Positions 6,747 to 62,384 of a stretch of DNA of 64,000 nucleotides are shown piece by piece. Both the position numbers and the translations under genes were made by a program. The notes beneath the pieces are model-generated. The model searched no databases, was not told where the DNA came from, and worked only from the letters and a program-made list of their open reading frames with translations. The stretch comes from Acidobacteriota bacterium (lineage in GTDB: Bacteria > Acidobacteriota > Vicinamibacteria > Vicinamibacterales > 2-12-FULL-66-21). How positions within the stretch are numbered: the stretch's first letter is position 1; each line of letters opens with the position of its first letter. The DNA is taken from contig JACPDI010000028.1 in the NCBI GenBank assembly GCA_016184105.1, forward strand, positions 62,001-126,000. Direction: 5' to 3'.

Positions 6747-9494
6747 TTACTGCTTGACGAGCTGTCGCAACACGTAGGGCAGAATCCCGCCGTGGCGGAA
6801 CGCTTCGAGCTCCTCCGGCGTGTCGATGCGCACCGTGACGGCCAGGTCTCTGGTGGTGCCGTCCTCGCAGATCGCGCGCACGGTCGTCTCCGCGCGCGGT
6901 TTCAGCAGCGCGAGCCCGGTGATGTCGAAGCGCTCGCGCCCGGTGAGCCTGCACGTCGAGACGCTCTGGCCCGCCTTGAACTGCAGCGGCAGCACGCCCA
7001 TGTTCACCAGGTTGCTGCGGTGGATGCGCTCGAAACTCTCGGCGATGACGGCGCGGACGCCGAGCAGCACGGTACCTTTCGCCGCCCAGTCGCGCGACGA
7101 GCCGGATCCGTACTCCTTGCCGGCCAGCACCATCAGCGGCACGCCGCGCTCGCGATATTTCTCCGACGCGTCGAAGATCGACATCACGTCGCCGTCGGGC
7201 AGCAGCGTGGTCCAGCCTCCCTCCGTGCCGGGCGCCACCTGGTTCCGCAGGCGGATGTTCGCGAACGTGCCGCGGACCATCACCTCGTGGTTTCCGCGCC
7301 GCGCGCCGTATGAATTGAAATCGCGCGGCTCCACCCCGTTCGCGATCAGGTAGCGGCCTGCCGGGCCGTCGGGTGGAATGGAGCCCGCCGGCGAGATGTG
7401 GTCGGTCGTGACGCTGTCGCCCAGCAGCGCGAGCACGCGCGCGCCGGTGATGTCCGAGAGCGGCCTCGGGCTCGGGGTGATGTCCTCGAAGAACGTCGGC
7501 TTGCGAATGTAGGTCGACATGTCGTCCCACGCGAAGCGATCGCCGGTCGGCGTCGGCAGCGCGCGCCACCGGCCGTCTCCCTGGAACACTTCCGCATACG
7601 TGTGCGTGAACATGTCCGATCGTACGGACTGGAGCATCGCGTCCTGGATCTCCCGCTCGGTGGGCCAGATGTCCTTGAGATAGACCGGGTGCCCGTCCGC
7701 GTCGGTCCCGAGCGGCTCGGAGGTGAGATCCGTTCGCATGGTTCCCGCCAGCGCGTAGGCGACCACCAGCGGAGGCGAGGCGAGGTAGTTCGCGCGCACC
7801 TGCGACTGGATGCGCCCTTCGAAGTTCCGGTTCCCGCTGAGGATCGACGCGACCACGAGATTCCGGTCCCTGACCATCAGCGATACCGGCTCGGGGAGCG
7901 GCCCGCTGTTGCCGATGCACGTCGTGCATCCGTACCCCACGATGCTGAAGCCGAGCTGTTCCAGGTACGGCAGCAGGCCCGACGCCTTCAGGTACTCCGT
8001 CACCACGAGCGATCCGGGCGCGAGGCTCGTCTTCACCCACGGCTTGGTTTTCAGTCCGCGCTCGACCGCCTTCTTTGCGAGCAGCCCGGCGCCGATCATC
8101 ACGCTCGGGTTGGACGTGTTGGTGCAGCTCGTGATCGCGGCAACCACCACCGAGCCGTGGCCAAGCTCCGAGCCAGGGCCGGCACCAGGCGCCTCGGCCA
8201 CGGCCGCGGCCGTCGCGGCGCTCGCCTGCGGCGACGTCGCCTCGCCGGGCTTCGGCGTCGCGGCCGCGGTCCGCTTCTTCTGGTCCGCGAGCATCGTCTC
8301 GAGCGCCTGCTCGAAGCGCACCTTCGAGTTCACGAGCGACACGCGATCCTGCGGCCGCTTCGGGCCGGCGAGGCTTGGCTCGACGGTCGACAAATCGAGC
8401 TCGATGACCTCGTCGTACGCCGGATCGATCCCACCGGCCAGGCGGAAGAGCCCCTGCTCCTTCGCGTACGCCTCGACGAGGCGCACGTGATCGGCGTCGC
8501 GCCCCGTGAGGCGCAGGTAGTCGAGCGTCATGTCGTCAATCGGGCAGATGGCGATCGTCGCGCCGTACTCAGGCGACATGTTGCCGAGCGTGGCGCGATC
8601 GGCGATCGTCAGGTCCTCGAGGCCGGGCCCGAAGAACTCGACGAACTTGCCCACCACGCCGTGCTTGCGCAACCGCTCGGTGACGGTCAGCACCAGGTCG
8701 GTGGCCGTCGTGCCTTCCGGCAGGCGATTGACGAGACGGAAGCCCAGGACCTCGGGAACCAGCATCGAAATGGGCTGCCCGAGCATGGCGGCCTCTGCCT
8801 CGATCCCGCCCACGCCCCAACCGACGACACCGAGGCCGTTGACCATCGTCGTGTGCGAGTCGGTGCCGACCAGCGTGTCGGGATAGACGAGCGGCTCGGC
8901 TCCCTTTTCCCGGAACACGACGCGCGCGAGGTACTCGATGTTGATCTGGTGGACGATGCCGGTGTCGGGTGGGACGACGCGGAAGTTGTCGAACGCGGTC
9001 TGCCCCCAGCGCAGGAACGTGTAGCGCTCGCGGTTGCGGGAGAACTCGAGCTGCGCGTTCAGCTCTGCGGCATCGCGCCGCGCGAAGTGATCGACCTGCA
9101 CGGAGTGGTCGATGACGAGCTCGACGGGCCACAGCGGGTTGACCTTCGACGGATCGCCGCCGAGCCGCACCATCCCGTCGCGCATCGCCGCCAGATCGAC
9201 GACGGCCGGGACGCCGGTGAAGTCCTGGAGCAGGACGCGCGCGGGCATGAACGCAATCTCCTGCTCGAGATCGGCGGTGGGATCCCAGCTCGCGACCGCG
9301 CGGATGTCATCTCGATCGACGAAGCGGCCATCCTCCCGCCGCAGCAGGTTCTCGAGAAGGATCTTGAGGGAGTACGGCAGGCGCGAGACCTGCGAGAAAC
9401 CTGCCTGTTCGAGCGCCGGCAGGCTGAACAAAGAGAACCGCTGGCCGCCGACCGACAGCGAGCGGCGTACGTTGAAAGAATCGTTTGAGGCCAT
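6747..9494 (-). CDS. acnA: Aconitate hydratase (AcnA/IRP type)
   Basis: Isomerises citrate to isocitrate in the TCA cycle. The 915-residue protein has the cluster-ligand cysteines in [12 protein letters not shown] and [12 protein letters not shown], the early [10 protein letters not shown] and DHSVQVD motifs, the [13 protein letters not shown] loop, and the swivelling domain with [17 protein letters not shown] low-complexity Ala/Pro linker of about 45 residues (roughly 390-435) interrupts the core shortly before ITSC and is unusual for the family. An in-frame GTG exists at 9512; the ATG at 9494 matches the usual N-terminus better. Confidence 0.95.
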
Positions 9495-49201: not shown

Positions 49202-51052
49202 TTACGGCGCCGTCCGGGCGCTGCCCGCCGGCCGCCGCTCCTGGTCCTTGTACTGAAGCTGATAGAGCTTGTAGTAGAGGCCGCGATGGGCGAGCAGTTC
49301 CTGGTGCGTGCCTGACTCGCGGAGCTCTCCCTTGTGCAGCACCAGGATCGTGTTCATGTCCTGGATGGTCGAGAGGCGGTGTGCGATGGCGATCGTGGTG
49401 CGACCGGCCATGAGCACGTGCAGGGCGTCGCGGATCAGCAGTTCGGTCTCGGTGTCGACGCTGGATGTCGCCTCGTCCAGGATGAGGATGCGCGGATCGA
49501 AGGCGAGCGCGCGAGCGAACGACAGGAGCTGCTTCTGCCCGACCGAGAGCGTCGCGCCGCGCTCGGCGACCTTCGCCGCCAGGCCGTCGGGCAGGCGCTC
49601 GATGAAGCTGTCGGCGTGCACCGCGCGCGCGGCGTTCCACACCGCCGCATCCGTGATCGCCTCGTTGCCCAGCCGGATGTTGCCGCCGATCGTGCCCGAG
49701 AACAGGTGCACGTCCTGGAGGACCAGGCTGAACAGGGACCGAAGTTCCCGGAGGTCGATGCGGCGGATGTCCTCGCCGCCCACCAGGATCCGTCCCCTGC
49801 TCACGTCGTAGAAGCGCAGCAGCAGGTTGATGATCGTGGACTTGCCCGCCCCGGTCGCGCCCACGATCGCCACGCGCTCGCCCGCCGCGGCCTCGAACGA
49901 GAGGTCCTTCAGCACGTAGTTCGCGCCGTCGTAGGCGAACCACACGTCCTCGAACACGATCGACGGCTCTTTTTCCCTTTTGACCTTACCCTGTTGCCTT
50001 TTCCCGTTTTCCTCTTGCCATTCTTCCTCCGCGTACCCCTCGCGCCCGATCTCGACCGGCGTATCCAGCAGCAGGAAGATCCGCTCGGACGACACCATCG
50101 CGCCCTGCAGCACGTTGAACTTTTCCGAGAGGTCGCTGATCGGGCGGAAGAAGCGCTGCGAGTACTGGAGGAAGGCGACGAGCGCGCCCAGCGTGGCGGT
50201 CCCCTCGAGCACGCGGCCGCCGCCGTACCAGATGATCAGGGCCGCGGCCAGCGCGCCGATCACTTCGATCGCCGGGTAGAACACGGCGTAGTAGAAGATC
50301 GAGTCGATGTTCGCGTTGCGATGCGTCGCGTTGATCGTGTCGAAGGCGGCACACGTGCGCGGCTCGCGCCTGAACAGCTGGATCGTGGAGATGCCGCTGA
50401 TGTGCTCCTGCAGGAACGCGTTGATGCGCGCGATCCAGATCCGGACGACGCGGTACGACTCGCGCACGTTGCGGCGGAACCACTGCGTCACGAGCCCGAT
50501 GAGCGGCAGGACGAGGAACGACACGAGCGCCAGCCGCCAGTCCAGCGTGAGCATCACGATCATGATGCCCAGCAGCGTGAACAGGTCGCCGAACACCGTG
50601 ACGACCCCGGACGTGAACATCTCGTTGAGGACGTCCACGTCCGTGGTGACCCGCGTCATCAGCCGGCCGACGGGGTTGCGGTCGTAGAAACGCACGTCCA
50701 GCCGCTGCAGGTGACCGTAAATCTGCATCCGCAGATCGAACATGACGCGCTGGCCGGTCAGCTGCATCGTGTAGGTCTGCACGTACTCGAGCGTGAAGGA
50801 GCCGAGCAGGACGAACAGGAATGCGAGCGCGACGCCGTTCAACCCCTGCAGGTCGCCGGCCGCGATGTAGCGGTCGATGGCAATCTTGGTCAGGTACGGC
50901 TGAGCGAGCTGCAGGACGGATGCGAAGATGATCGCCACGAGGGCGAGCGCCACCTGGGGGCGGTACGGCCGCAGGTACCCGAGCAGCCGCCGCATGAGGC
51001 GCGCGTCGTAGGCCTTTCCGATGACGTCTTCTTCGTGATGGAACGACGACAT
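49202..51052 (-). CDS. ABC exporter, fused membrane/ATPase subunit (second of a pair)
   Basis: 616 residues: six TM helices (about 30-320), then the ATPase with Walker A GATGAGKS, signature LSVGQKQLLSFARAL, Walker B ILILDEATSSVD and the H-loop IAHRLS. The second of two adjacent exporters, likely a heterodimer of the multidrug/lipid (MsbA-like) class. A linker at about 346-361 (EEEWQEENGKRQQGKVKREKE) is encoded by a polypurine repeat. The signature motif is LSVGQ while the partner has LSGGQ. Confidence 0.9.
   Translation of the reverse strand: MSSFHHEEDVIGKAYDARLMRRLLGYLRPYRPQVALALVAIIFASVLQLAQPYLTKIAIDRYIAAGDLQGLNGVALAFLFVLLGSFTLEYVQTYTMQLTGQRVMFDLRMQIYGHLQRLDVRFYDRNPVGRLMTRVTTDVDVLNEMFTSGVVTVFGDLFTLLGIMIVMLTLDWRLALVSFLVLPLIGLVTQWFRRNVRESYRVVRIWIARINAFLQEHISGISTIQLFRREPRTCAAFDTINATHRNANIDSIFYYAVFYPAIEVIGALAAALIIWYGGGRVLEGTATLGALVAFLQYSQRFFRPISDLSEKFNVLQGAMVSSERIFLLLDTPVEIGREGYAEEEWQEENGKRQQGKVKREKEPSIVFEDVWFAYDGANYVLKDLSFEAAAGERVAIVGATGAGKSTIINLLLRFYDVSRGRILVGGEDIRRIDLRELRSLFSLVLQDVHLFSGTIGGNIRLGNEAITDAAVWNAARAVHADSFIERLPDGLAAKVAERGATLSVGQKQLLSFARALAFDPRILILDEATSSVDTETELLIRDALHVLMAGRTTIAIAHRLSTIQDMNTILVLHKGELRESGTHQELLAHRGLYYKLYQLQYKDQERRPAGSARTAP
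49968..50029. repeat. Polypurine low-complexity repeat inside the ABC exporter gene
   Basis: CTTTTTCCCTTTTGACCTTA and the following CCCTGTTGCCTTTTCCCGTT are a drifted array of about 9-bp units, much lower in GC than the gene around it. They encode a charged linker between the membrane and ATPase parts. Confidence 0.5.
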
Positions 51053-51053
51053 G

Positions 51054-52868
51054 CTAGCTCGCGGTCAGCTCCTCCTCGAGGAGCTGCTTGCGGTACAGCT
51101 CCGCGTACGCGCCCCCCTGCGCGACCAGCTCGTCGTGGCGGCCGCGCTCGCCGATCCGCCCCTCGTCGAGCACCAAAATCTGGTCCGCGTGGCGGACGGT
51201 GGACACCCGGTGCGAGACGATCAGCGACGTGCGCTGCTTCATGACCTGCTTGAGCCGCGTCAGGATTTCCTCCTCCGTATACGTGTCCACCGCCGACAGC
51301 GCGTCGTCCAGGACGAGGATGGGCGGGTCGGTCACGATCGCGCGCGCAATGGCGGTGCGCTGCTTCTGTCCCCCGGAGAGCGTGATCCCGCGCTCGCCGA
51401 CCATCGTGTCGAAGCCCTTCGAGAAGGCCTCGATGTCCTTGTCGAGCCGCGCGACCGCCGCGGCCTCGCGGACCGCGGAAAGGACCGCGGAAAGTGGGAC
51501 AGTCACACTTTCCTGTGAGCGAGCGGAAAGTGTGACTGTCCCACTTTCCGCCTCCACCCCCAGCGCGATGTTGTTGGCCACGGTGTCCGAGAACAGGAAC
51601 GGCTCCTGCGGCACGAAGCCAATCGCCCTGCGGAGCACCGGGAGCGGGATGTCGCGGACGTCCACGCCGTCGATGAAGACGCTGCGCGGCGGCGGCTCGT
51701 GCAGGCGCGGCAGCAGCGACAGCAGCGCCGACTTGCCCGATCCGGTGGGCCCGACGAGCGCCACCGTCTGGCCGGGTTCGATCTTCGCCGAGACGCTGCG
51801 CAGAACGGGTTCGCCGGTCCCGTTGTAGCTGAACGTCAGATCCCTGATCTCGATGCCACCACGCGCGATGACCGGGACGACGGGGCGGCCCGGAGGCGCG
51901 TGGGTGATCACGGCGGGCTCGGCGTCCAGCACGTCGAGCATGCGTTTCCACGACGCCATCCCCCGCTGCATCATGTTCGTCACCCAGCCGAATGCAATCA
52001 TCGGCCAGCTCAGCATCGCCAGGTACGAGTTGAACGCGACGAACTCGCCGAGCGTGATCCGGCCGCGGATCACTTCGCGGCTGCCTATCCAGAGCAGGAG
52101 CAGCGCGCCGAGGCCCAGGAACAGGGACATGCTGGGGAAGAACAGCCCCTGGATCCGGATGAGCGACCGGTTCCGGTCGAAATACTCCTGGTTGGCGGCC
52201 CTGAACCGCGCCAACTCGGCGTCCTCCTGCCGGTACGCGCGCACGACCCGGACGCCGGAGAGGGCTTCCTGCGCGACGGCCGTGATGTCGGCGAGTTGCT
52301 CCTGGATGCTCTCGAAGCGGCGGTGGATGACCGAACCGAAGTACTTGACCGAGATCGACACGAACGGCAGCGGGATCAGCGCGATGAGCGTCAGCCTCGC
52401 GTCGATCGAGATCATCAGCGTCAGCGCCACGACGAACACGATCAGCGTCGTCGTCGAGTACATGACGGCGGGGCCGATCATCATGCGGACGGCGCTGAGG
52501 TCGTTGGTGGCGCGCGACATGAGGTCGCCGGTCCTGCGCTCCTGGAAGTAGCTCACGGGCAGCTTCTGCAGGTGGCCGAAGAAGTCGTTGCGCAGGTCGT
52601 ACTCGATGATCCGCGAGGCGCCGACGATGATGCGGCGCATCAGGAAGCGGAAGTAGCCACCGACGAGCGCAATGCCGAGGAGCGTGGCCGCGTAGGTGAT
52701 GAGCTTGGCGCGGGTGACGCCCACGGTGAGATCGTCAATCGCGTATTTCAGGATCCACGGCGACGCGAGCGAGACGGCGGTCGTGATCGCGGCGCACGCG
52801 AGGCCGAGGGCGAACTGGCGCCTGACCCTGAGTGCGTACGGCAGCAGGCGGCGGAACGCGGTCCCCAT
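51054..52868 (-). CDS. ABC exporter, fused membrane/ATPase subunit (first of a pair), with palindrome insert
   Basis: 604 residues: six TM helices, then the ATPase with Walker A GPTGSGKS, Q-loop FVPQEPFLFSDTVANN, signature LSGGQKQRTAIARAI, Walker B ILVLDDALSAVD and H-loop VSHRVS. Note that the Walker B catalytic Glu is Asp (LDDALSAVD), typical of the degenerate site of a heterodimer. A palindrome copy is inserted in frame between the Q-loop and the signature (about residues 440-460). The ATG lies 7 nt after TATACT. Confidence 0.9.
   Translation of the reverse strand: MGTAFRRLLPYALRVRRQFALGLACAAITTAVSLASPWILKYAIDDLTVGVTRAKLITYAATLLGIALVGGYFRFLMRRIIVGASRIIEYDLRNDFFGHLQKLPVSYFQERRTGDLMSRATNDLSAVRMMIGPAVMYSTTTLIVFVVALTLMISIDARLTLIALIPLPFVSISVKYFGSVIHRRFESIQEQLADITAVAQEALSGVRVVRAYRQEDAELARFRAANQEYFDRNRSLIRIQGLFFPSMSLFLGLGALLLLWIGSREVIRGRITLGEFVAFNSYLAMLSWPMIAFGWVTNMMQRGMASWKRMLDVLDAEPAVITHAPPGRPVVPVIARGGIEIRDLTFSYNGTGEPVLRSVSAKIEPGQTVALVGPTGSGKSALLSLLPRLHEPPPRSVFIDGVDVRDIPLPVLRRAIGFVPQEPFLFSDTVANNIALGVEAESGTVTLSARSQESVTVPLSAVLSAVREAAAVARLDKDIEAFSKGFDTMVGERGITLSGGQKQRTAIARAIVTDPPILVLDDALSAVDTYTEEEILTRLKQVMKQRTSLIVSHRVSTVRHADQILVLDEGRIGERGRHDELVAQGGAYAELYRKQLLEEELTAS
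51489..51549. repeat. REP-like palindrome, copy 3 of 3, inside the ABC exporter ATPase
   Basis: Perfect 25-bp arms (51489-51513 and 51525-51549) with an 11-nt loop and the same core GTGGGACAGTCACAC. Upstream lies CCGCGGAAAGGACCGCGG of the other repeat family. It is translated as ESGTVTLSARSQESVTVPLS without shifting the frame. Confidence 0.9.
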
Positions 52869-52875
52869 CTCAACA

Positions 52876-52881
52876 AGTATA
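52876..52881 (-). promoter_or_regulatory. -10-like hexamer of the ABC exporter pair
   Basis: TATACT on the minus strand ends 7 nt before the ATG at 52868, fitting a leaderless mRNA. The divergent barrel gene starts 110 bp away and does not share this element. Confidence 0.4.
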
Positions 52882-52979
52882 TGTGCTATCCTTGATGAGC
52901 CTTCTCCCAGCAGGCTTCCCCTTAGACACCCTCGAGTCCGCTCGAGGCAATCGTGACACTTTTCGGGGCGCGAGGAGCC

Positions 52980-53807
52980 ATGCGTACACGACTCTCGTTT
53001 GCCGTCGCGACGGCGTGCGGCGTTTTTCTCCTGGGGCTGATGACGTCGCCGGCCCACGCACAATACGGTGCCCGCCCCGCCTCGACGACTCCTCCCGGCG
53101 AGGACTATCACGTCGAGATCGCCGGCGGGTTCTGGAATCCCACTCCCGACATCGTCATCTCGAGTGAGGCGCTCGGCCGGGTCGGGAGCGAGATCGATTT
53201 CGTCAACGACCTCGGGCTCACGAAGAAGCAGTTCGGCGACCTTCGAATCGTCCTGCGCCCCACGAAGAAGTCGAAGTTCCGCATCGGCTACACGCCGGTG
53301 AAGTACACGCAGAGCGCCACGCTGACGCGCAGCATCGAGTTCAACGCCCAGCGCTTCGATATCAGCCTGCCGGTGGATTCCGAGCTGGAGTGGAAGCAGT
53401 GGCGCTTCGGCTACGAGTACGACTTCGTGTACAACGACAAGGGCTACGCGGGGCTGATCCTGGACGTGAAGTACACGGACGTGACCGCGACGCTGTCGAA
53501 CAGGCTGGTCGGAACGGAATTCACGCACGCAAAGGCGCCCATCCCCGCGATTGGCGGCGTGGGGCGCGTGTACGTTCACCCGAGCGTGTCGATCACGTTC
53601 GAGCTGACGGCGTTGAAGGTTCCCACGATCCAGGAGAAGTACGAGGCGACGTTCATCGATTGGGACCTCAACAGCACGTTCAACATCAACCGCAACCTGG
53701 GCGCACAGGTCGGCTACCGCAGCCTCGGTGTCAACTACCTGTTCGACAAGGACACGGGAGACATGACGCTGAGGGGGCTCTACTTTGGGGGCGTCGCGAG
53801 GTTTTAG
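52980..53807 (+). CDS. Secreted outer-membrane beta-barrel protein
   Basis: 275 residues with a signal peptide (ending SPAHAQ, about residue 28) and barrel-like strands (DYHVEIAGGFWNP, KSKFRIGYTPVKY, WKQWRFGYEYDFVYNDKGYAGLIL, NLGAQVGYRSLGVNYLFDKDTG), closing GLYFGGVARF with a C-terminal Phe. AGGAG is 2-4 nt before the ATG at 52980. It resembles OmpW/DUF-type barrels; function unknown. Confidence 0.7.
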   Translation: MRTRLSFAVATACGVFLLGLMTSPAHAQYGARPASTTPPGEDYHVEIAGGFWNPTPDIVISSEALGRVGSEIDFVNDLGLTKKQFGDLRIVLRPTKKSKFRIGYTPVKYTQSATLTRSIEFNAQRFDISLPVDSELEWKQWRFGYEYDFVYNDKGYAGLILDVKYTDVTATLSNRLVGTEFTHAKAPIPAIGGVGRVYVHPSVSITFELTALKVPTIQEKYEATFIDWDLNSTFNINRNLGAQVGYRSLGVNYLFDKDTGDMTLRGLYFGGVARF

Positions 53808-53813
53808 GGAAGA

Positions 53814-53848
53814 AACCGCGGGGGACGCCTTCCGCGTCCTCTGCGGTT
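53814..53848. repeat. Dispersed TTCTGCGG repeat, hairpin between convergent genes
   Basis: AACCGC (53814-53819) pairs with GCGGTT (53843-53848), with an inner GGACGC-CTTCC-GCGTCC stem. It lies between the stop codons of the barrel gene and the convergent GT-C gene and could terminate both, although no T-run follows. Confidence 0.5.
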
Positions 53849-53858
53849 CCCCCATGGA

Positions 53859-56510
53859 CTAGTGCGGTGACACCCACACCCCCAGATACCGCCTGTCGGT
53901 ACTCTTCGGGTCCACCTCTGACGGCCTGAACCCGCCGCGGGACACAATCCGCACGAGCGCGGCGCCGCGCTGCGGGTCGATGGGCACCTCCACTTCGCGT
54001 TCCTCGTCCGGGCGCAGCGATGCCGACTGCTTCCACGCGCCGTCTCCCGCCTGCAGTCCCACCTCGTTCGGCACGGGCCCGTTCCTGAGGAGGAGCGTCG
54101 AGCGGCTCCCCGCCTCCGGCTGGATCACGATGTCCGACTCCGCCCCGCCGCGAATCCAGAGCCCTTCCGGCTCGTTGAACGCGTCGCCATCGAGAAACCA
54201 CACGAGCGTGCGGCCGTAGCGCCGTGCGGTGCTCGCGCGCGCGCGCGCCAGGCGCTCGCGGCGCGTCGCGACGTGCAGAGGCGTGAGGCTGCCCCGTTCC
54301 AGTCCCGCGCCGCGCAGGATGATCGCGGGCACGTCGACGGGCAGGAGAACGTCGAACGCCAGCCGCGGGCCATCGTCGCCGGCCGTGCCGGTCGCGATGG
54401 GTGTTCCAGAGCGGAGCACGAGCAGTTCGTACGCAGACCCTGGCTTCGCCTCGGCGCTGATGCGATATCTGCCCGCGGGAAACCATCCCGGGAGCACGAG
54501 CGCCGGCGGATTGTCGCCGCCGCGCATCCGAGGCGGCGATTCGATCGCGAGGGCCTGCAGGCCGGCGTCGACGGGCAGGCGCCGCACCTGCCTGCCGCGG
54601 TACTCGACCGCGATCCGCCGGTCGCCCTGTGCCGCGCTGAGGAGCTTCAGCTGCGAGGCCGACGGGCGCACGCCGGGCGAATCGTTCACGCGCCAGAGCA
54701 CCAGGAGCATCGCCGTGCCGGCCGCGGCGTAGATCGCCATCATCAGCAGGGTGAACGCGCCGGTGCCGCGCACGCGGCGGTCGAGCCGGCGAAGCAGCAC
54801 GAACGCGGCGACGAAGAGCGCAAGCGCGGCCAGGATCTGCAGGTGCAGCAGCCGCTCGCTGGTGTGCCAGCGGAAGAAACTCGGGAAGCCGAGCGGCAGG
54901 TCGGCCACACCGGAGGGCCACTCGAGCCAGAGGGCGTAGCCGTCGCGCACGTTGTACGCGGGCCGGCCGCCGTCCACGTACGCGAGCGCCGTCGTGGTCA
55001 GCGCCGAGATGACGAGCGTCGCGACGGCCGTTCCGCGCCCCGCCCGCGACCGCGCGTGCGACCACGCAACGGCCATCGGCAGCGGCGCGAGCCATAGCAC
55101 CGCCACCGAAAACCGCGCCGGCGCGCTCCAGCCTCCCCACCACATGCGCAGGTGGGTCGTCGCAATCATGTAGGGAACGACGATGACCGCCAGTTCGAGC
55201 GCGAGGCGCGGCTCGCGCCTCAGGAGGATGACCCACCCCGCGAACGCAATGAGGAACACGGGCGCGTAGGTCATCATGCCGAACTGCTGGTCGAAGAGCA
55301 CGCCGGCCAGGCCCCCCGTGACGAACGACCACGAGCTTTGCGTCTTGAAGAAGTCGCCGTACGGCGCGTCGGGGTTGGGCGTGCCGTAGATGACCCAGAA
55401 ATAGGCGAACCAGGCCATGCCCAGGAGAACGGGAAAGACGAGGAACGCGGCCGCGCGCGAGAGCCCTTCGCGCGTGCGCGGCATTCGCAACAGGATGAAC
55501 ACGCCGAGGAGGCCGGCAAGGATCGCGAACCGCGTGTGAAGCCAGGGCAGCAGCGCGAGCCCGAGGCCATGCAGGAGCCACACCGTCCGCACCGGAAGGC
55601 ACGTGGCACGTCGCACGTCGCACGTCGCACGTGACATGCGCAGCAGCGCCCAGGCGCCCGTCAGCGTGAGCACCGCGGCGGGGCCGTCTGGATAGATCGT
55701 GAAGGAATGGAACGCGATCGGCGTGGCGGCGGCGAGCGCCGCCGAGGCAAACCACGCGGCCGATCGTTGCCCCGTCAGATCCCACGCCAGTTTCCACGCC
55801 AGCGCGACGCCCGCCGCCGAGATCACCAGCAGCAGGAACACGACGCCGCGATAGCCGGCGATGAGATAGGCGGGCGCGACGATCGCGGACAGGCCGGGGG
55901 CGTGAATCGAGTAGATGGCGCCGTTGGTCCCCCGCACCCAGTAGTCGGGTCGCAGCGTCCCCTGGAAGTACGGGGCGTAATCGCCGCGCGCGTGGTTGTT
56001 CTCGATCTTCACGTCGCCGTCGTAGAGGAGGCTCTGCGCGATGATCAGGTAGTGCGGCTCGTCGCCGCCCGGCACCATCTCGCGCGCGCCGAACCCGATC
56101 GCCGCAAAAAAGATGAACGCGGCGGTGGCGGCCAATAAGGGGTCGGGAGCCTTTTTACGAAAAACGTAAAAAGGCTCCCGACCCCTTATTGTCGCGAGCG
56201 CGGCCGCGATCCACACGCCGGCGGCGAGCGGCCCGGTCCACACGAGCAGCGCTGGCGTGCTCACGCCAGGCATCCACGGCAGCACGCACAGGAACGTGAT
56301 GAACAGCGGCGTCACGCGGTCGCGGGACGGTTTGAAGAGATACACCGCGCAGATGCCCGCAAGGACGAACAGCGCCAGCTCCCACCAGGGGGGCAGGAGG
56401 CCGATCTTCGCCGCGCCGGAGGTGGCCGATCGGACCGCCAGGGCACCTCGGACGAACCAGGCCCCGGCCGCCGCGCAGACCGCGGCGGCATACGTGGTCA
56501 ACGACGACAT
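53859..56510 (-). CDS. Large polytopic membrane protein, GT-C glycosyltransferase-like
   Basis: 883 residues with about 12 TM helices in the first two-thirds and a soluble C-terminal third. The loop after the second-third helices, PGGDEPHYLIIAQSLLYDGDV, has the Asp/Glu acidic motif of GT-C (GT39/PMT-like) enzymes that use polyprenyl-phosphate sugars; a glycosyltransferase role is plausible but not certain. Two repeats are translated inside it: a palindrome at residues 107-126 (GREPFYVFRKKAPDPL) and heptamers at about 292-304 (ATCDVRRATC). TAAACT lies 9 nt before the ATG. Confidence 0.7.
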   Translation of the reverse strand: MSSLTTYAAAVCAAAGAWFVRGALAVRSATSGAAKIGLLPPWWELALFVLAGICAVYLFKPSRDRVTPLFITFLCVLPWMPGVSTPALLVWTGPLAAGVWIAAALATIRGREPFYVFRKKAPDPLLAATAAFIFFAAIGFGAREMVPGGDEPHYLIIAQSLLYDGDVKIENNHARGDYAPYFQGTLRPDYWVRGTNGAIYSIHAPGLSAIVAPAYLIAGYRGVVFLLLVISAAGVALAWKLAWDLTGQRSAAWFASAALAAATPIAFHSFTIYPDGPAAVLTLTGAWALLRMSRATCDVRRATCLPVRTVWLLHGLGLALLPWLHTRFAILAGLLGVFILLRMPRTREGLSRAAAFLVFPVLLGMAWFAYFWVIYGTPNPDAPYGDFFKTQSSWSFVTGGLAGVLFDQQFGMMTYAPVFLIAFAGWVILLRREPRLALELAVIVVPYMIATTHLRMWWGGWSAPARFSVAVLWLAPLPMAVAWSHARSRAGRGTAVATLVISALTTTALAYVDGGRPAYNVRDGYALWLEWPSGVADLPLGFPSFFRWHTSERLLHLQILAALALFVAAFVLLRRLDRRVRGTGAFTLLMMAIYAAAGTAMLLVLWRVNDSPGVRPSASQLKLLSAAQGDRRIAVEYRGRQVRRLPVDAGLQALAIESPPRMRGGDNPPALVLPGWFPAGRYRISAEAKPGSAYELLVLRSGTPIATGTAGDDGPRLAFDVLLPVDVPAIILRGAGLERGSLTPLHVATRRERLARARASTARRYGRTLVWFLDGDAFNEPEGLWIRGGAESDIVIQPEAGSRSTLLLRNGPVPNEVGLQAGDGAWKQSASLRPDEEREVEVPIDPQRGAALVRIVSRGGFRPSEVDPKSTDRRYLGVWVSPH
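55598..55635. repeat. CGCACGT heptamer array inside the GT-C gene
   Basis: GGCACGTGGCACGTCGCACG followed by TCGCACGTCGCACGTGAC: about five 7-bp units. In the gene frame they give SRATCDVRRATC, at the end of a TM segment. Confidence 0.65.
56134..56190. repeat. Palindrome with AAGGGGTCGGGAGCC core inside the GT-C gene
   Basis: Perfect 26-bp arms (56134-56159 and 56165-56190) with a 5-nt A loop. The core AAAAGGCTCCCGACCCCTT is unrelated to the GTGGGACAGTCACAC palindrome. It is in frame and adds about 20 residues between TM segments. Confidence 0.85.
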
Positions 56511-56519
56511 GAAACTGTG

Positions 56520-56525
56520 AGTTTA
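56520..56525 (-). promoter_or_regulatory. -10-like hexamer of the GT-C gene
   Basis: TAAACT on the minus strand ends 9 nt before the ATG at 56510, implying a 3-nt leader at most. Confidence 0.3.
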
Positions 56526-56532
56526 TCGGGTT

Positions 56533-58752
56533 TCACCGCCGCTTGCCGGATTGGGCCTTCGGCCTCTGGCCCTGTTCCGCGGCTTTCCCGCCGTAGAGGA
56601 GGCGGTAGTCCTCGGCGGTTCCGAGAATCTTCTTCACGTAGTTCTGCGTCTCGGGGAACGGGATGTCGTCGATGAACTCGTCGCGCTCGAGCCCCGGCCG
56701 TTCCGCGAGCCAGCGCACGACGCGGTTCTCGCCGGCGTTGTAGGCCGCGAGCGCCAGGTGCACGCCGCCGAACTGCTCGACGAGGCGCGAGAAGTACAGC
56801 GTGCCCATGCGCACGTTGGTGTCCGCGCTGGTGAGCGTGCCAACGCCGCGGTAGCGGATCCCGAGCGATCGGGCGAGCCGCCGGCCGGTCCCCGGCACCA
56901 CCTGCATCAGGCCGTATGCGTTGGCCGCGGATCGGATCTCCGGATCGAACGTGGACTCCTGCGCGATCAGCGCCGCGACCAGATAGGGATCGAGACGCCG
57001 GGCGCGCGAGTGCTTCTGGATCGCCGGCCAGTAGTCGAGCGGAAAGATGACGCGGAGCAGCTCGTCCGGCAGCGCCGCGCCGCCTGCGGCGCTGAGATGC
57101 TGGGGGTACGCGCGCTTCATCTGGTTGATCGCACGACGCAGGTCCCCCTGACGGTGATAGACCCACGCGATCGTGGCGTCTAGCGCGGGCGACGTTCCCC
57201 ACTGTCGCTGCGCGTATCGCAGCTCGTTCAGCGCGTCCAGCTCGAGCCCCAGGGAGAGCAGCAGCCGGATGCGGTCCGCCGTCGGCGGGAGCGCCACCGC
57301 CACGTCCGCTTCCTGCCTCGGCGCGGCCGGAGCGGCCCACGCCGCTCGAGCCACCTTGTCGATCCCCTCGAGGCGCCGCACCGCCAGGCGCCCGTAGTAG
57401 GAGTTCAGGTAATCAGCGGTGACCAGCCGGTAGCGCGCCGCGGCGCGCGCGGGATCGCCAATGCGTTCGCGTGACCGAGCGGCCCAGTACACCCACGACG
57501 GCCGGTAGTCGGATCGGGAGAACGTCGCGGCGGCCGACTCGAAGATGCGGACGGTCTCGGCGTAGTTGCCGTTCTTGTACTCCCACCAGCCAACCTTCCA
57601 GGCCGCGCGCTCGGCGCGGCTCCCCTTCGGAAAGCGGCGCAGCAGCTCGCGGAACGCCTCGGCCGCCTCCGCATCCTCGTTCTGAAGGATGTGGTGCGTG
57701 CCAAGATTGTTCAGCGCTTCCTCGGCCCACGAGCTGCCGGGGTGCGCGTCCACGAGCGCGCGCACCCGCGACAAGTACTCTTCGTGCTGGCCCAGCTCGC
57801 GGATCGCGGCGAGGTGGAAGAACTGGGCTTCGGCCTCGCGCCCGCCCGCCGCCAGGAACCCGCGCAGGCCGTCGCGCGCCGACGCGTAGCGCCGCAGGTA
57901 GAAATCGCTCTCCGCCACCCGCAGATCGGCAAGGTCGCGCTCCTCGCCGGAGGCGAGCTGACGGATCGACTGGAACGCCTCGCGAGCCTGCGCGTAGCGG
58001 CGCGACGCGAACAGTTGCTCCGCGCGCGCGAACTCCTGCTTGACGGTCGCCGGGCTGTTCGGCCGCGGCTCCACGCCGGACAGGCGCTCGAGCTCCACGT
58101 CGGCCAGCGCGGCTTCGTCGCTGAGCGGAAACTCGTAGCGGAGGCGCAGGAACGAGGACACCGCCTTCTGCTTGTCACCGGCGGCCAGCGCCGCGCGCCC
58201 GAGACGGTGAACGACGACCTCCGGCTCGAGCGGCCTGCCTGCCGCGAGCTGCTCGTAGAGGGCCGACGCCGCGGCGTGATCGTTGTCGAGCTCCGCGGCC
58301 TCGCCGCGCGCCAGGACCGACGCGTAGGCCAGATAGCCCTCGAGCGGTCGATCCTTCAGGGCCGATAACGTGCGCCGCGCCGCGGTCACATCGTTGAGCC
58401 GCAGCTCGGCGAGCCCGGCGTAGTACACGGCGTAGTCCGCCAGCGGCGAGCCGGCCACGCCCGCGGCGCGAAGCAGCGGCAGCGCGTCGGCGAACCGCTG
58501 CTCGTTGAAGCGCTCGATACCTTGAGCGACCTTCAACAGCGCTCCGGCCTGTCCGGTACGACCGGCTTCGCCGCCCGGCGCCAGCCACAGCGCGCCGGGA
58601 TCGCGCGGGATCGGCGCGTGCGCCGTCGGCTCGAGCGCCACGGCGGGCAACGCCGCGCGATCCTGCGATCGCGCGGGGCGAACGGAAGCTGAACTGAAAA
58701 ACAACGCGGCAAGGACCAGCGAGGTGACGGTGGAAGCGATTCGGCGTGTCAT
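56533..58752 (-). CDS. slt: Soluble lytic murein transglycosylase
   Basis: Periplasmic enzyme cleaving glycan strands. 739 residues: signal peptide (about 1-30), a long superhelix of TPR-like helices (about 60-560), then the SLT domain with the catalytic Glu in IAQESTFDPEIRSAANAYGLMQVVPGTG and the ALAAYNAGENRVVRW and FPETQNYVKKIL motifs. ATG 58752 follows the real signal peptide; the frame is open far upstream without similarity. Its C-terminus (QGQRPKAQSGKRR) comes from a GGCCAGAGGCC repeat. Confidence 0.92.
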   Translation of the reverse strand: MTRRIASTVTSLVLAALFFSSASVRPARSQDRAALPAVALEPTAHAPIPRDPGALWLAPGGEAGRTGQAGALLKVAQGIERFNEQRFADALPLLRAAGVAGSPLADYAVYYAGLAELRLNDVTAARRTLSALKDRPLEGYLAYASVLARGEAAELDNDHAAASALYEQLAAGRPLEPEVVVHRLGRAALAAGDKQKAVSSFLRLRYEFPLSDEAALADVELERLSGVEPRPNSPATVKQEFARAEQLFASRRYAQAREAFQSIRQLASGEERDLADLRVAESDFYLRRYASARDGLRGFLAAGGREAEAQFFHLAAIRELGQHEEYLSRVRALVDAHPGSSWAEEALNNLGTHHILQNEDAEAAEAFRELLRRFPKGSRAERAAWKVGWWEYKNGNYAETVRIFESAAATFSRSDYRPSWVYWAARSRERIGDPARAAARYRLVTADYLNSYYGRLAVRRLEGIDKVARAAWAAPAAPRQEADVAVALPPTADRIRLLLSLGLELDALNELRYAQRQWGTSPALDATIAWVYHRQGDLRRAINQMKRAYPQHLSAAGGAALPDELLRVIFPLDYWPAIQKHSRARRLDPYLVAALIAQESTFDPEIRSAANAYGLMQVVPGTGRRLARSLGIRYRGVGTLTSADTNVRMGTLYFSRLVEQFGGVHLALAAYNAGENRVVRWLAERPGLERDEFIDDIPFPETQNYVKKILGTAEDYRLLYGGKAAEQGQRPKAQSGKRR

Positions 58753-58839
58753 TGCGCTTCCCTTCGGATTATGGGGACGCGGATCCGGCAAGTCAACAGC
58801 CGCCGCCCCTTCGCGCGGGCGCCAAAGCCCTGCAGTATC

Positions 58840-60447
58840 ATGAGTGGCTTGCTCCGCTCCCGGCTCCTCACAATCCTGGTCGCGTCGGCCGCCGCGCTCG
58901 GCATCGCCGTTTCCGCGTTCTGGTTCGGCAGCACGGGCACCGGCTACGCGCGCACGCACGCCGCCGCGCTCGTCGCCGCGCTGCTCCTCGCCGCCGTGTT
59001 GACGACGGTCAACCTGGTGCTCAGGTGGCTGCGCTGGAATTTCCTGGTGAGGCGGATGGACGTACGCGTCCCGACGCGCGAGGGAGTCCGGCTCTACTTC
59101 GCCACGCTGCCGGCGATCGCCACGCCGTTTTACGTCGGCGAGCTGATCCGCGCGCAGCTGCTCTCCGCGCGGTTCGCCAACGCGCGGGTCGCCGTCGCGC
59201 TGGTCTGGCTCGTCGAGCGCGCGACCGATGCGATCGTCCTGCTCCTGTTTTTCCTGCTCGCACGCGGCGAGCTGCCGTGGGCGCTGGCCGCGGGAGCTGG
59301 ATGGATCGTCGCGCTGTCGCTGCTGCGCGGCAGCCGCTCCGCCCGGATCCGCGCGCTGGCGCGCCCCATCGTGCTCGCCGTGACATTCCTCAGCACGGCG
59401 GCGGCCTGGGCGCTCGCCGTCCTCGCGCTCCTCGCGGCGCTCCGGATCGCCGGCGAGCCACGTTCGCTGGCCATCGCCGCCGAGGCCATGGCGGGTGGCA
59501 CGCTGCTCGGCGGCATCGCGGGCGTTCCGCTCGGCACGGGGATCGCCGGCTCGACGACGTTGATCCTGCTGGAGGCGCACGGCCTCCGCGCCGAGGCGGC
59601 CGCGGCGATCGTCGCCGTCTTTCGCGCCGGCACCTCCTGGTACGCCGTCGGCCTGGGTTTCCTGACCCTGCTCGCCTCTCGCCGGCAGCTCGTGGCGTTC
59701 CTGCGCCCCTCGTCCGCGGCGCAGCACTTCGACGAGATTGCCGCGGGGTACGAGGAGCAGATCCCGCTGCATATCCGCGAGCGGCTGCTCGATCGCAAGG
59801 TGTCGTTCATGCGGCGCCGGCTCGAGGAGACAGGCGTGCGGGCGGGCGCTCGCGGCGTCGACATCGGCTGCGGGCAGGGTTGGTACGCGTGCGAGATGTC
59901 AGCGCGGGGCTACCGCATCGACGCGCTCGATCAGGCGGCCGATCAGATTGCGCACGCGAAGCGCTACGCGTCCGGCCGCGGCTGCACGGTCGCGTTCCAG
60001 GCGATCGATGCCGAGCGGCTGCCCTTCCCGGACGACACGTTCGACTTCGCTTACAGCATCAACGTGATCCACCACGTGATCGACCCCGTGAAGCGCGACC
60101 TGGTGCTTGCGGAGATCGTGCGCGTGCTCAAGCCCGGCGGGATCTTCTTCCTGCACGAAATCAACACCGAGAATCCGCTCTTCCGGTTCTACATGAGCTA
60201 CTTCTTCCCGCTGATGTGCGAGATCGATGAGGGAACGGAACGCTGGGTCAGGCCGACGCGCCTGCCGGCGGTGCCCGGCGCGCGGTGGAACGCGCACGTG
60301 GACTACTTCACGTTCCTGCCGGACTTCACGCCCCGGCCCGTGCTCGACGCGCTGCGCAGCCTCGAGGCGTGGCTGGAACGCTCGCCGCTGCGCTCCTGGA
60401 GCGCCCATTACGCCGCATCGCTTACCAAGGAAAAGGGCAAAAGGTAG
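58840..60447 (+). CDS. Flippase-like (LPG synthase TM / UPF0104) membrane domain fused to a SAM methyltransferase
   Basis: 535 residues. Residues 1-295 hold 7-8 TM helices of the lysylphosphatidylglycerol synthase TM/UPF0104 type (RWLRWNFLVRRMDVRVP, FYVGELIRAQLL, LVERATDAIVLLLF, GTGIAGSTTLILLEA). Residues about 300-535 are a class I methyltransferase: SAAQHFDEIAAGYEEQIP leads in, motif I is GVDIGCGQGWYACEMSARG, then DTFDFAYSINVIHHVIDP and LKPGGIFFLHEIN. The joining sequence is ordinary. The combination suggests methylation of a membrane-associated lipid or isoprenoid; unproven. The C-terminus (TKEKGKR) comes from a polypurine repeat. Confidence 0.85.
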   Translation: MSGLLRSRLLTILVASAAALGIAVSAFWFGSTGTGYARTHAAALVAALLLAAVLTTVNLVLRWLRWNFLVRRMDVRVPTREGVRLYFATLPAIATPFYVGELIRAQLLSARFANARVAVALVWLVERATDAIVLLLFFLLARGELPWALAAGAGWIVALSLLRGSRSARIRALARPIVLAVTFLSTAAAWALAVLALLAALRIAGEPRSLAIAAEAMAGGTLLGGIAGVPLGTGIAGSTTLILLEAHGLRAEAAAAIVAVFRAGTSWYAVGLGFLTLLASRRQLVAFLRPSSAAQHFDEIAAGYEEQIPLHIRERLLDRKVSFMRRRLEETGVRAGARGVDIGCGQGWYACEMSARGYRIDALDQAADQIAHAKRYASGRGCTVAFQAIDAERLPFPDDTFDFAYSINVIHHVIDPVKRDLVLAEIVRVLKPGGIFFLHEINTENPLFRFYMSYFFPLMCEIDEGTERWVRPTRLPAVPGARWNAHVDYFTFLPDFTPRPVLDALRSLEAWLERSPLRSWSAHYAASLTKEKGKR

Positions 60448-60449
60448 AA
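60421..60449. repeat. Polypurine low-complexity repeat at the fusion gene stop
   Basis: CCAAGGAAAAGGGCAAAAGG: a short drifted array forming the last residues and stop of the methyltransferase fusion. Same type as 17310 and 49968. Confidence 0.4.
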
Positions 60450-60451
60450 CG

Positions 60452-61621
60452 TCAGCCCCTTCCAAGCAGCGCCGGGTCGCCATCGGCGAGCGTTTGCACC
60501 AGCTCGTCGTCGAAGTAGGTCGCGCGCGAGGGGACGTGTGCCGGGACGCGTTCCTCGTAGAGCCGGCGGGCGCGGTCGATCTCCGGGCGGAGACGAGTGA
60601 GCAGGTCGTGCTTCTGCCGGCCGAGCCGTACCGACGCCTCGTTGTACAGCTTGATCTCGGAGACGAGGAGCCGCGCGTAACGGCGGGCGCTCTGATCGTC
60701 TTCCGTCGATGTCGCGCCCGTGCCAAGGGTGGCCACCGGCGCTGAACCGGTGGCCGGACGTCCTGCGCCGAGCGCCTGGACGGTGCGGAGCGCCGTGAGC
60801 GTCTCGAGGCGGAGCGCCGCATGGCGCGCGAGAATCTCGATCGCTTCGGGCCACGGCGAGGGCACCGCCGCGGGATTCGCCGACACATCATCCGCGTACA
60901 CGATCGCGACCGTCTGTCCGCTGATGTCGATCGGCACGGAGAAGCCCGCGCGATCGGGAGGGAGCGGCGCGAACGGCAGCCCGCGGGTCAAGTTGGCGGC
61001 CTCCGAGCGGGAGATCGGCCGCCCCTCCGGTTCGCTGAAACCGTGCAGGCGGAAGGGCTGGAACGACGCGCCCGCCGCGACGAAGACTCCGGTGCGCGAC
61101 GTTTCAGCGCCGACGGCGCCGGCGAGCGCGGCGAGGACATCGGAAAGCGCGGCCGCTTCGCCGATGCGGCGCACCGCGCCGATCAGGCGATCGAGCGTCG
61201 CCATCTCGTCGTGGCGCTCCTGCGCGCGCGCGGCGGTTTCCGCCTCGCGTGCCTTCTCGACGGTCTGCTCGGCGGCGAGCGCCCGATCGCGCACCAGCGC
61301 AAGCTCGGCCGCGGCGGTTTCCGCCTCGTCGCGGAGGCGCTCGATCTCCGCGCGCAGCTTGCCGAGCTCGTCGGCGTTTGCCGCTTCCAGCTCGCCGCGC
61401 ACGCGCGCCCCCTCGGCGCCAACGCGCCGGTCGGCTTCCGCGCGCACGGCGGCGATTTGCTCCGCCAGCTCTGATGCGGCACGGGCCTCCGCAGCAGCGC
61501 GGTCCCGCTCGGCCGCGCCGGCCACATCCTTCGCGATGGCGGTCGCGCGTCCCGAAATGTCCTGCTGCAGCGAAGACGCCAGTTGGAGGAGCGCGTCGCG
61601 GATCTGCTGTTCGACAGACAT
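60452..61621 (-). CDS. Coiled-coil protein with a GAF-like domain
   Basis: 389 residues: N-terminal coiled coil (about 15-150, Ala/Glu/Arg-rich) followed by a GAF-like sensor fold (LDRLIGAVRRIGEAAALSDVLAALAGAVGAETSRTGVFVAAG ... FSVPIDISGQTVAIVYADD) and a helical tail. No output domain, so it may be a partner in a signalling complex. ATG 61621 is chosen because the extra upstream 20 residues overlap the divergent gene region. Family not recognised. Confidence 0.6.
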   Translation of the reverse strand: MSVEQQIRDALLQLASSLQQDISGRATAIAKDVAGAAERDRAAAEARAASELAEQIAAVRAEADRRVGAEGARVRGELEAANADELGKLRAEIERLRDEAETAAAELALVRDRALAAEQTVEKAREAETAARAQERHDEMATLDRLIGAVRRIGEAAALSDVLAALAGAVGAETSRTGVFVAAGASFQPFRLHGFSEPEGRPISRSEAANLTRGLPFAPLPPDRAGFSVPIDISGQTVAIVYADDVSANPAAVPSPWPEAIEILARHAALRLETLTALRTVQALGAGRPATGSAPVATLGTGATSTEDDQSARRYARLLVSEIKLYNEASVRLGRQKHDLLTRLRPEIDRARRLYEERVPAHVPSRATYFDDELVQTLADGDPALLGRG

Positions 61622-61654
61622 GGTGTGTGCGTGCGCGTCGGGAGCTTCTGGAAT

Positions 61655-61660
61655 TATCCT
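61655..61660 (+). promoter_or_regulatory. -10-like hexamer of the DUF2461 gene
   Basis: TATCCT ends 7 nt before the ATG at 61668. The overlapping minus-strand GATAAT (61658-61653) could serve the divergent coiled-coil gene with a leader of about 25 nt. Confidence 0.35.
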
Positions 61661-61667
61661 CGTAGGG

Positions 61668-62384
61668 ATGGTCCCGCACAAGCCTCAGCGGTCGCCGCGC
61701 TTTCCCGCCGGTGCCGTACGTTTCCTGCGCGCGCTCAAGCGCAACAACGATCGTGAATGGTTCCGCGCGCGGCGCGAGGAGTTCGACGCGCTCGTCGACG
61801 CGCCGATGAACGCCGTCATCGAGCGGCTCGCCGTCGACTTGAGGCGGTTCGCGCCGGATCTGCTCGCCTCGCCGCGCGTGTCCCGCTATCGGATCTATCG
61901 CGACACGCGCTTCAGCGAGAACAAGACGCCGCTCAAGACGCACGTCTCCGCGATCTTTCCGTCACGTTTCGCGCCGCGCCACGAGGGGCCGGCGCTGTAC
62001 TTCGAGATCGCCGGCGCGTCGGTCTACGCGGGCGGCGGCGTGTACATGCCGCCGCCTGAAACCGTGCAGCTCCTGCGCGAGCACATTGCCGCCCGCCACC
62101 GCGATCTCGCGCGCATCGTCCGGGCGCCGGCGTTCAGGCGGCTGTTCGGCGAAATCGAGGGCGGCCGCCTGTCGCGCATGCCGCGCGGCTTCCCTGCGGA
62201 TCATCCTGCGGGAGACTTCTTGAAGTACCGGCAGATCCTCGTGGGGCGCGAGTGGCCCGCGTCGTTTGCCTCCAGCCCGCGGTTCTACCCGGAGCTGCTG
62301 AAGACGTTCCGCGCCATCGCGCCGCTCGTCAGGTTCCTGGAGACGCCGTTGAAGGCTCGCCGGAAGGATCCACTATTAAGTTGA
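61668..62384 (+). CDS. DUF2461 family protein
   Basis: 238 residues covering a DUF2461 (TIGR02453) domain: FLRALKRNNDREWFRARREEFDALVDAPM near the start, the SRYRIYRDTRFSENKTPLKTHVSAIFP segment, ALYFEIAGASVYAGGGVYMPPPE and GRLSRMPRGFPADHPAGDFLKYR. Function unknown. It is followed by a DinB protein. Confidence 0.92.
   Translation: MVPHKPQRSPRFPAGAVRFLRALKRNNDREWFRARREEFDALVDAPMNAVIERLAVDLRRFAPDLLASPRVSRYRIYRDTRFSENKTPLKTHVSAIFPSRFAPRHEGPALYFEIAGASVYAGGGVYMPPPETVQLLREHIAARHRDLARIVRAPAFRRLFGEIEGGRLSRMPRGFPADHPAGDFLKYRQILVGREWPASFASSPRFYPELLKTFRAIAPLVRFLETPLKARRKDPLLS

Follow-up and report, generated by a model that had tools for sequence, protein, structure and literature searches.

In this 64,000-nucleotide stretch of an Acidobacteriota contig (the window), one gene joins a flippase-like membrane domain to a class I SAM methyltransferase (58840..60447, + strand; 535 aa plus stop). 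Is this fusion real, and if so, which lipid might it methylate and move? As the initial annotation had it, 58840-60447 (+) is a single open frame: it is stop-free over its 535 aa, and the full frame from stop to stop measures 584 aa. The start at 58840 agrees with the N-termini of relatives; an upstream ATG at 58771 would lengthen the protein by 23 aa. The LPG_synthase_TM/UPF0104 domain with its ends takes up 58840..59706 (~aa 1-289), and the methyltransferase domain, with a DIGCGQG motif I, takes up 59719..60444 (~aa 294-535). The proposed pairing of a UPF0104 domain and a class I SAM methyltransferase in one protein is borne out, as both Pfam domains scored above their cut-offs: PF03706 at aa 18-273 (3e-16, 60.2 bits versus 33.4) and Methyltransf_11 at aa 340-438 (1.5e-23, 83.7 bits versus 21.2). 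Against the same PF03706 gathering score of 33.4, the fusions of genomes G803, G681, G510 and G434 reached 40.2, 35.1, 33.7 and 58.4 bits, respectively. Since the opposite-strand lytic transglycosylase gene starts at 58752, the fusion has no companion gene in its own direction of transcription at this locus.

The fusion of the two domains is real. A search of other genomes for the same domain order found it in one frame in 11 beyond the window (G159, G269, G415, G418, G423, G434, G435, G116, G803, G510 and G681; the G116 sequence contains a few undetermined residues). This rules out a frameshift or assembly join in the window, and the idea that homologues are always encoded apart fails on the same one-frame copies. 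In total there are 12 one-frame fusions including that of the window, one frame-broken copy (G436/L006) and one remnant (G237). Between G269 and G418, dN/dS is ~0.35 in the membrane part, 0.16 at the junction and 0.11 in the methyltransferase; both domains and the junction are under purifying selection (dN/dS <1). The break in G436, also seen in L006, lies inside the methyltransferase of the fusion by a run of seven A (L060 ~9202-9227), and could reflect a sequencing error, decay or slippage. In G237:C45, the last ~85 fusion residues are left between a GT2 and a GT-C glycosyltransferase gene (L092 3741-3995), through either in-place gene loss or misassembly.

Within the order of the window, the fusion profile matched at E <= 1e-30 in 11 of 162 genomes: the window's own, nine others with full-length copies, and G237 with its last ~85 residues only. 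The window protein matched at 1e-25 in 8 of 27 genomes of family f7 and at 1e-20 in 4 of 396 genomes of a wider phylum sample, where at most three candidates were scored per genome. The fusion occurs in 3 of 288 genomes of the phylum to which Kiritimatiellae record L006 belongs. A scan of genome contigs yielded 33 loci, among which L006 alone spans both domains and the other 32 match the methyltransferase only. No fusion was found among 52 plasmid records (0/52 with one place covering 80%) or in viral contigs, where two loci matched by the methyltransferase only; the membrane part, used as a separate query, likewise had no match.

In a phylogeny of the membrane domains, the 13 fusions formed a single clade (99/99; 100% of 200 bootstrap trees), apart from 26 stand-alone PF03706 proteins taken from related genomes and from the window's genome. 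The window fusion clusters with that of G803 and next with three from the L006 phylum, and not with those of f7. This suggests, from the sequences, that the history of the fusion includes transfer or an old duplication.

The fusion has three separate insertion sites, with differing genes around it. In f7, the fusion lies between GT2 and GT-C, and in G803 it is divergent from another GT-C copy. In the window, it lies between a conserved protein without Pfam match (60452..61681, - strand) and an SLT lytic transglycosylase with TPR repeats (56533..58752, - strand), from which it diverges at a distance of 87 bp. This lytic transglycosylase is an ancestral neighbour of a GT-C-like glycosyltransferase of 883 aa (53859..56510, - strand), which carries a GDEPHYL motif and belongs to the family of the GT-C behind the f7 fusion. 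Downstream of the GT-C follows a pair of ABC exporters, the first MsbA/Smd-type (51057..53855, - strand) and the second MsbA-type (49205..51052, - strand). The conserved protein and the lytic transglycosylase directly adjoin and run on to the GT-C in seven relatives (L104, L107, L110, L111, L113, L114 and L117), drawn from 14 fetched fusion-less GT-C loci. The ABC pair lies downstream in six of these seven (truncated in L110, where the stretch ends), and L113 has pieces of one exporter only. The run of conserved protein, SLT lytic transglycosylase and GT-C, mostly followed by two MsbA-like ABC exporters, in 49205-61681 and the seven relatives seems to be an envelope locus of the order not described before.

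The GT-C family is the element that recurs beside the fusion. Each of the 11 order genomes that carry a fusion or remnant has it, against 92 of 162 across the whole order, and in each of the 11 a GT-C copy adjoins the fusion or remnant or lies one gene away. The GT-C had no Pfam match and no match in a sequence search of solved structures; its assignment comes from a profile-versus-profile comparison with PMT_2. A single PMT_2 protein against the GT-C profile reached 29.8% only, and the profile of 20 GT-C members against 30 PMT_2 proteins of related genomes reached 96.9% (E 1.6e-10; controls 0.4% and 0.0%). The GDEP motif is invariant in six aligned GT-C rows, and the window GT-C has a match, below the cut-off, to the Leptospira LA_3751/LA_3752 putative glycosyltransferase family.

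The f7 site has the most complete operon. DedA, GT2, fusion and GT-C follow each other on one strand in 9/9 loci, with G237 retaining the remnant only; in the G116 and G415 loci the GT-C extends past the contig end. The DedA call is based on the VTT-domain match of the orthologue in the window's genome, and DedA proteins recycle undecaprenyl phosphate. Among solved structures, the f7 GT2 is closest to ArnC (PDB 6e-52) and GtrB, and in NCBIfam its nearest model is ArnC (1.6e-56, under the cut-off). In fusion-less relatives, the f7-type run is DedA - GT2 - GT-C (L105, L106, L109 and L116). Several f7 loci have a GDSL lipase behind the GT-C, and G423 has a tandem pair of GT-C genes behind the fusion (L057 1383-7098). 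In G791, a further methyltransferase-GT2 pair with overlapping ends lies a few kb from a DedA-GT2-GT-C run (L109 14320-16058). The GT2 orthologue of the window's genome (70% identity) is encoded on another contig, C23, unlinked to the fusion; there, a GDSL lipase, a Pfam-less membrane protein and then a PMT_2 enzyme come after DedA and GT2 (G000:C23:27314-31596; L091 8315-12597). A GT2 adjoining the fusion was likewise not seen in G803, G436 and G510.

With moderate confidence, we place the fusion as the middle component in a three-component extracytoplasmic glycosylation system, in which the flippase would bear a methyltransferase that faces the cytoplasm and acts on a polyprenyl-phosphate sugar. 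As judged from its sequence, a GT2 of the ArnC/GtrB kind would charge undecaprenyl phosphate with a sugar at the cytoplasmic face. Still on the cytoplasmic side, the methyltransferase at the C-terminus of the fusion would then methylate this lipid-linked sugar, with SAM as methyl donor. The N-terminal UPF0104 domain would, as its family implies, carry the methylated lipid to the outer leaflet, where a GT-C of the 53859-56510 family would hand the sugar to an outside acceptor. Holding methyltransferase and flippase in one chain would bias export toward the methylated form. The initial annotation had suggested that methylation of a lipid or lipid-linked sugar accompanies its movement across the membrane. 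The sugar part of this suggestion is the best supported, by the f7 operon (9/9 loci) and the GT-C at the two other sites; the coupling to movement, like the substrate and the flipping itself, we infer.

Several observations count against the glycosylation reading. The GT2 is unlinked to the fusion in the window's own genome, and the fusion is rare, with 11 of 162 order genomes including one remnant. The methyltransferase core points to no particular substrate, and glycine stands at position 237 of the membrane domain, where solo members have a polar residue. The L006 phylum supplies the main counter-evidence. There, G436 and G510 have no glycosyltransferase nearby and have secretin-domain and glycine-transporter-family genes instead; these two are the readable surroundings in that phylum, as the G681 contig is only 3 kb long. 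In both loci (L060 and L089), the fusion gene is flanked upstream by a gene for a secretin-like protein (matched by Pfam Secretin in L089) and downstream by one of the glycine-transporter family. The GT-C family was found in 0/3 fusion genomes of this phylum, a result that shows little. In this phylum, the protein may work with a different donor system or on a different lipid.

The methyltransferase domain itself was compared with known enzymes. Motif I residues D341, G343, G345 and G347 are invariant in nine fusions, and the Foldseek matches of the domain are methyltransferases. For METHYLTRANSFERASE, the solved-structure matches spread over many class I enzymes, and as the core matches so many class I families, the substrate is unreadable from it. 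The best clue to the substrate comes from the genes that accompany its relatives. On a Phyllobacterium plasmid, a methyltransferase alignable with almost the entire domain is encoded in the order GT2 - MT - GtrA - membrane protein. The order GT2 - MT - GtrA also occurs in Phyllobacterium zundukense, Pararhizobium, Mesorhizobium and Legionella; it surrounds the Phyllobacterium-type methyltransferase in 5/5 annotated loci, a sixth locus being without annotation. Over the whole domains, the profiles of the fusion and GtrA-linked methyltransferases matched at 99.9%, a value obtained without a control and one that any class I pair may reach.

In the C-terminal part of the methyltransferase, the fusion profile matched that of five GtrA-linked methyltransferases at 90.7% (E 1.2e-6); none of 16 single controls exceeded 6.5%, and two control profiles gave 17.7% (over 16 columns) and 0.2%. 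Taken singly, two of the five GtrA-linked tails stood out (66.0% and 30.0%) and three did not (3.6-5.6%), and that only 2/5 are clear of the controls also counts against the glycosylation reading. For this comparison, 3 of 19 controls and one of six GtrA-linked tails were dropped as they had no anchor, and the cut in G510 was placed late. On sequence, the C-terminal part of the fusion methyltransferase resembles methyltransferases encoded beside GtrA. The Streptomyces methyltransferase H1 was considered as sharing the fusion tail and was rejected at 2.3%. In G760, a solo methyltransferase gene lies directly upstream of a GT-C of the same family and ends about at the GT-C start.

Rather than a sugar carrier, the substrate could be a phospholipid. 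The methyltransferase would then methylate a phospholipid head group, for instance an amine, and the membrane domain would take the phospholipid to the outer leaflet, much as in MprF, where this membrane domain shares a chain with an enzyme that modifies lipids. PaMprF is described as scrambling many lipids (PMC11980842), the gpgSDF genes pair a UPF0104 protein with glycolipid enzymes (PMC12713373), and the L006-phylum fusions have no glycosyltransferase neighbours, all of which fits such a role. However, GT2 and GT-C genes neighbour the fusion at three sites, and a PmtA-type phospholipid N-methyltransferase was rejected, as the Legionella PmtA NCBIfam model scored 32.6 bits against a cut-off of 390. 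We consider this reading rather unlikely.

Whether the membrane domain transports at all depends on how much of its core has been kept. R65, W66, P96, G100, E101 and R127 are retained in 13/13 fusions and R104 in 11/13. Position 237 is glycine in 12/12 readable fusions versus E, H or Q in 26/26 solo members; the polar residue is a conserved trait of this sample and not a published defining feature. The comparison comprised the 13 fusions and 26 solo rows from eight related genomes (G510 excluded) and the window's, a subset of the matches. AlphaFold modelled the membrane part with low confidence (ten-residue blocks of 34 to 69 over aa 1-310), so we drew its layout from hydropathy and charge in nine fusions. 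These place the N-terminus, the arginine-rich loops 62-86, 100-117 and 160-178 and the methyltransferase inside, and two short hairpins at about 86-115 and 213-248; the methyltransferase domain thus probably lies on the cytoplasmic side. The eight hydrophobic segments agree with the eight helices initially annotated, two of them probably being re-entrant hairpins as in MprF. The same layout, with its N-in topology, loops and hairpins, is described for MprF subdomain 1 (PMC8131360, PMC11980842).

Judged by spacing, positions 237 and 262 could correspond to Glu280 and Arg304 of MprF, a pair proposed to gate the path (PMC8131360, PMC11980842). As a profile search of solved structures returned no match to MprF, the equivalence of 237 and Glu280 is read from motif spacing alone. 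Glycine in place of a near-universal polar residue means that transport could be altered or lost. The membrane domain might then be an anchor or dock without transport, which holds the methyltransferase beside GT2 and GT-C while DedA, the ABC pair or a solo UPF0104 protein moves the lipid. Such a role would suit the loss of E, H or Q in all readable fusions, the faster divergence of the membrane part (0.35 versus 0.11), the further solo UPF0104 genes retained in f7 relatives, and the f6-type operons that consist of DedA, GT2 and GT-C without any fusion. Nevertheless, the remaining core residues of the membrane domain are retained. Changes at the gate residues, if 237 is equivalent, did not abolish lipid movement in RtMprF and PaMprF, though the corresponding alanine change in S. 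aureus MprF impaired function and increased daptomycin susceptibility (PMC8131360, PMC11980842). We regard a pure anchor as unlikely, somewhat more so than a phospholipid substrate.

A methyltransferase that acts outside any such pathway, on a quinone or a small metabolite, with an incidental neighbourhood, is highly improbable. The UbiE and UbiG models do match its core; however, these and the other named methyltransferases fell far under their NCBIfam cut-offs among the matches listed. With three differing sites that each lie beside one GT-C family, an incidental neighbourhood is unlikely by chance, at ~0.1-0.2% per site by a rough reckoning that is a guide only, since the family was chosen after seeing it. 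That the fusion is merely a frameshift or assembly join of two genes is scarcely credible, as the split G436/L006 copy and the G237 remnant stand against 12 one-frame copies including the window's and purifying selection across the junction.

How does the fusion compare with known systems? We found no description of a UPF0104-methyltransferase fusion in the open-access literature, with most subscription journals outside the search. The initial annotation held that the usual partner of this membrane unit is an aminoacyl transferase or none; this is right for MprF and the stand-alone members, but incomplete, as GT2-UPF0104 fusions (AglD) also occur (PMC5898192). MprF is alike in that one chain of the same membrane domain family combines lipid modification on the cytoplasmic side with a mover, as far as its published descriptions go. 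However, the partner here is a methyltransferase instead of a GNAT-type synthase, and the window fusion had no Pfam match to the aminoacyl-PG synthase domain of the MprF C-terminus. The fusion also has the eight-segment subdomain only, without TM9-14, and its neighbours point to lipid-linked sugars.

The Arn system, ArnC-ArnE/F-ArnT, is of the three-component type. It shares with GtrA/GtrB/Gtr, the GT136 pentofuranose system (PMC11127046) and the system proposed here an undecaprenyl-phosphate charger, a flippase and a GT-C. Unlike in those, a UPF0104-type domain would be the flippase here, in one chain with a methyltransferase, and a DedA gene leads the operon. In archaea, genes for UPF0104 proteins neighbour those for a PMT/STT3-like enzyme and for an AglD-like GT2, but the fusion partner there is the GT2, and the main text of that study mentions a methyltransferase 0 times (PMC5898192). 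The GT2 - MT - GtrA clusters of Rhizobiales and Legionella likewise have a related methyltransferase gene flanked by a polyprenyl-phosphate-type GT2 on one side and a flippase on the other; there, the methyltransferase is unfused and the flippase, GtrA, is of another family. Under the three-component reading, these clusters would be its unfused form, and methylated donors are predicted in three-component glycosylation systems.

Why some lipid-linked sugars are methylated before export has been a question ever since Lechner et al. (1985; cited in PMC4335974) described transient methylation in Halobacterium as obligatory, and the fusion bears on that result. In that older work, the glycan carries the methyl only while on dolichol phosphate; failed methylation blocked glycosylation, and a role in membrane crossing was suggested (PMC4335974). 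In Haloferax, glycosylation remained possible when methylation failed (PMC4335974), which argues against a general rule. In corynebacteria, the methyltransferase MtrP is needed for transport of trehalose monomycolate (PMC7775120). The Halobacterium and MtrP cases may serve as precedents, and not as proof for the fusion, of methylation tied to lipid export. A stronger version of our three-component reading, which we hold only tentatively and think doubtful, is that methylation would act as an export licence: the fused enzyme would cap the polyprenyl-phosphate sugar and pass it directly to its own flippase, and only methylated lipid would be moved. This would be the bacterial equivalent of the obligatory transient methylation in Halobacterium. 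Glycine 237 and R262, the latter kept in 13/13 fusions, would then be adaptations to an anionic substrate. As methyltransferase and flippase-like domain form a single chain whose halves can be mutated separately, the link between methylation and movement, as a requirement or as mere decoration of the sugar, is testable. Halobacterium salinarum and Haloferax AglP offer a likeness, a methyltransferase that works on a lipid-linked glycan (PMC4335974); their systems differ in being archaeal, in having an oligosaccharide as substrate and in keeping enzyme and flippase separate.
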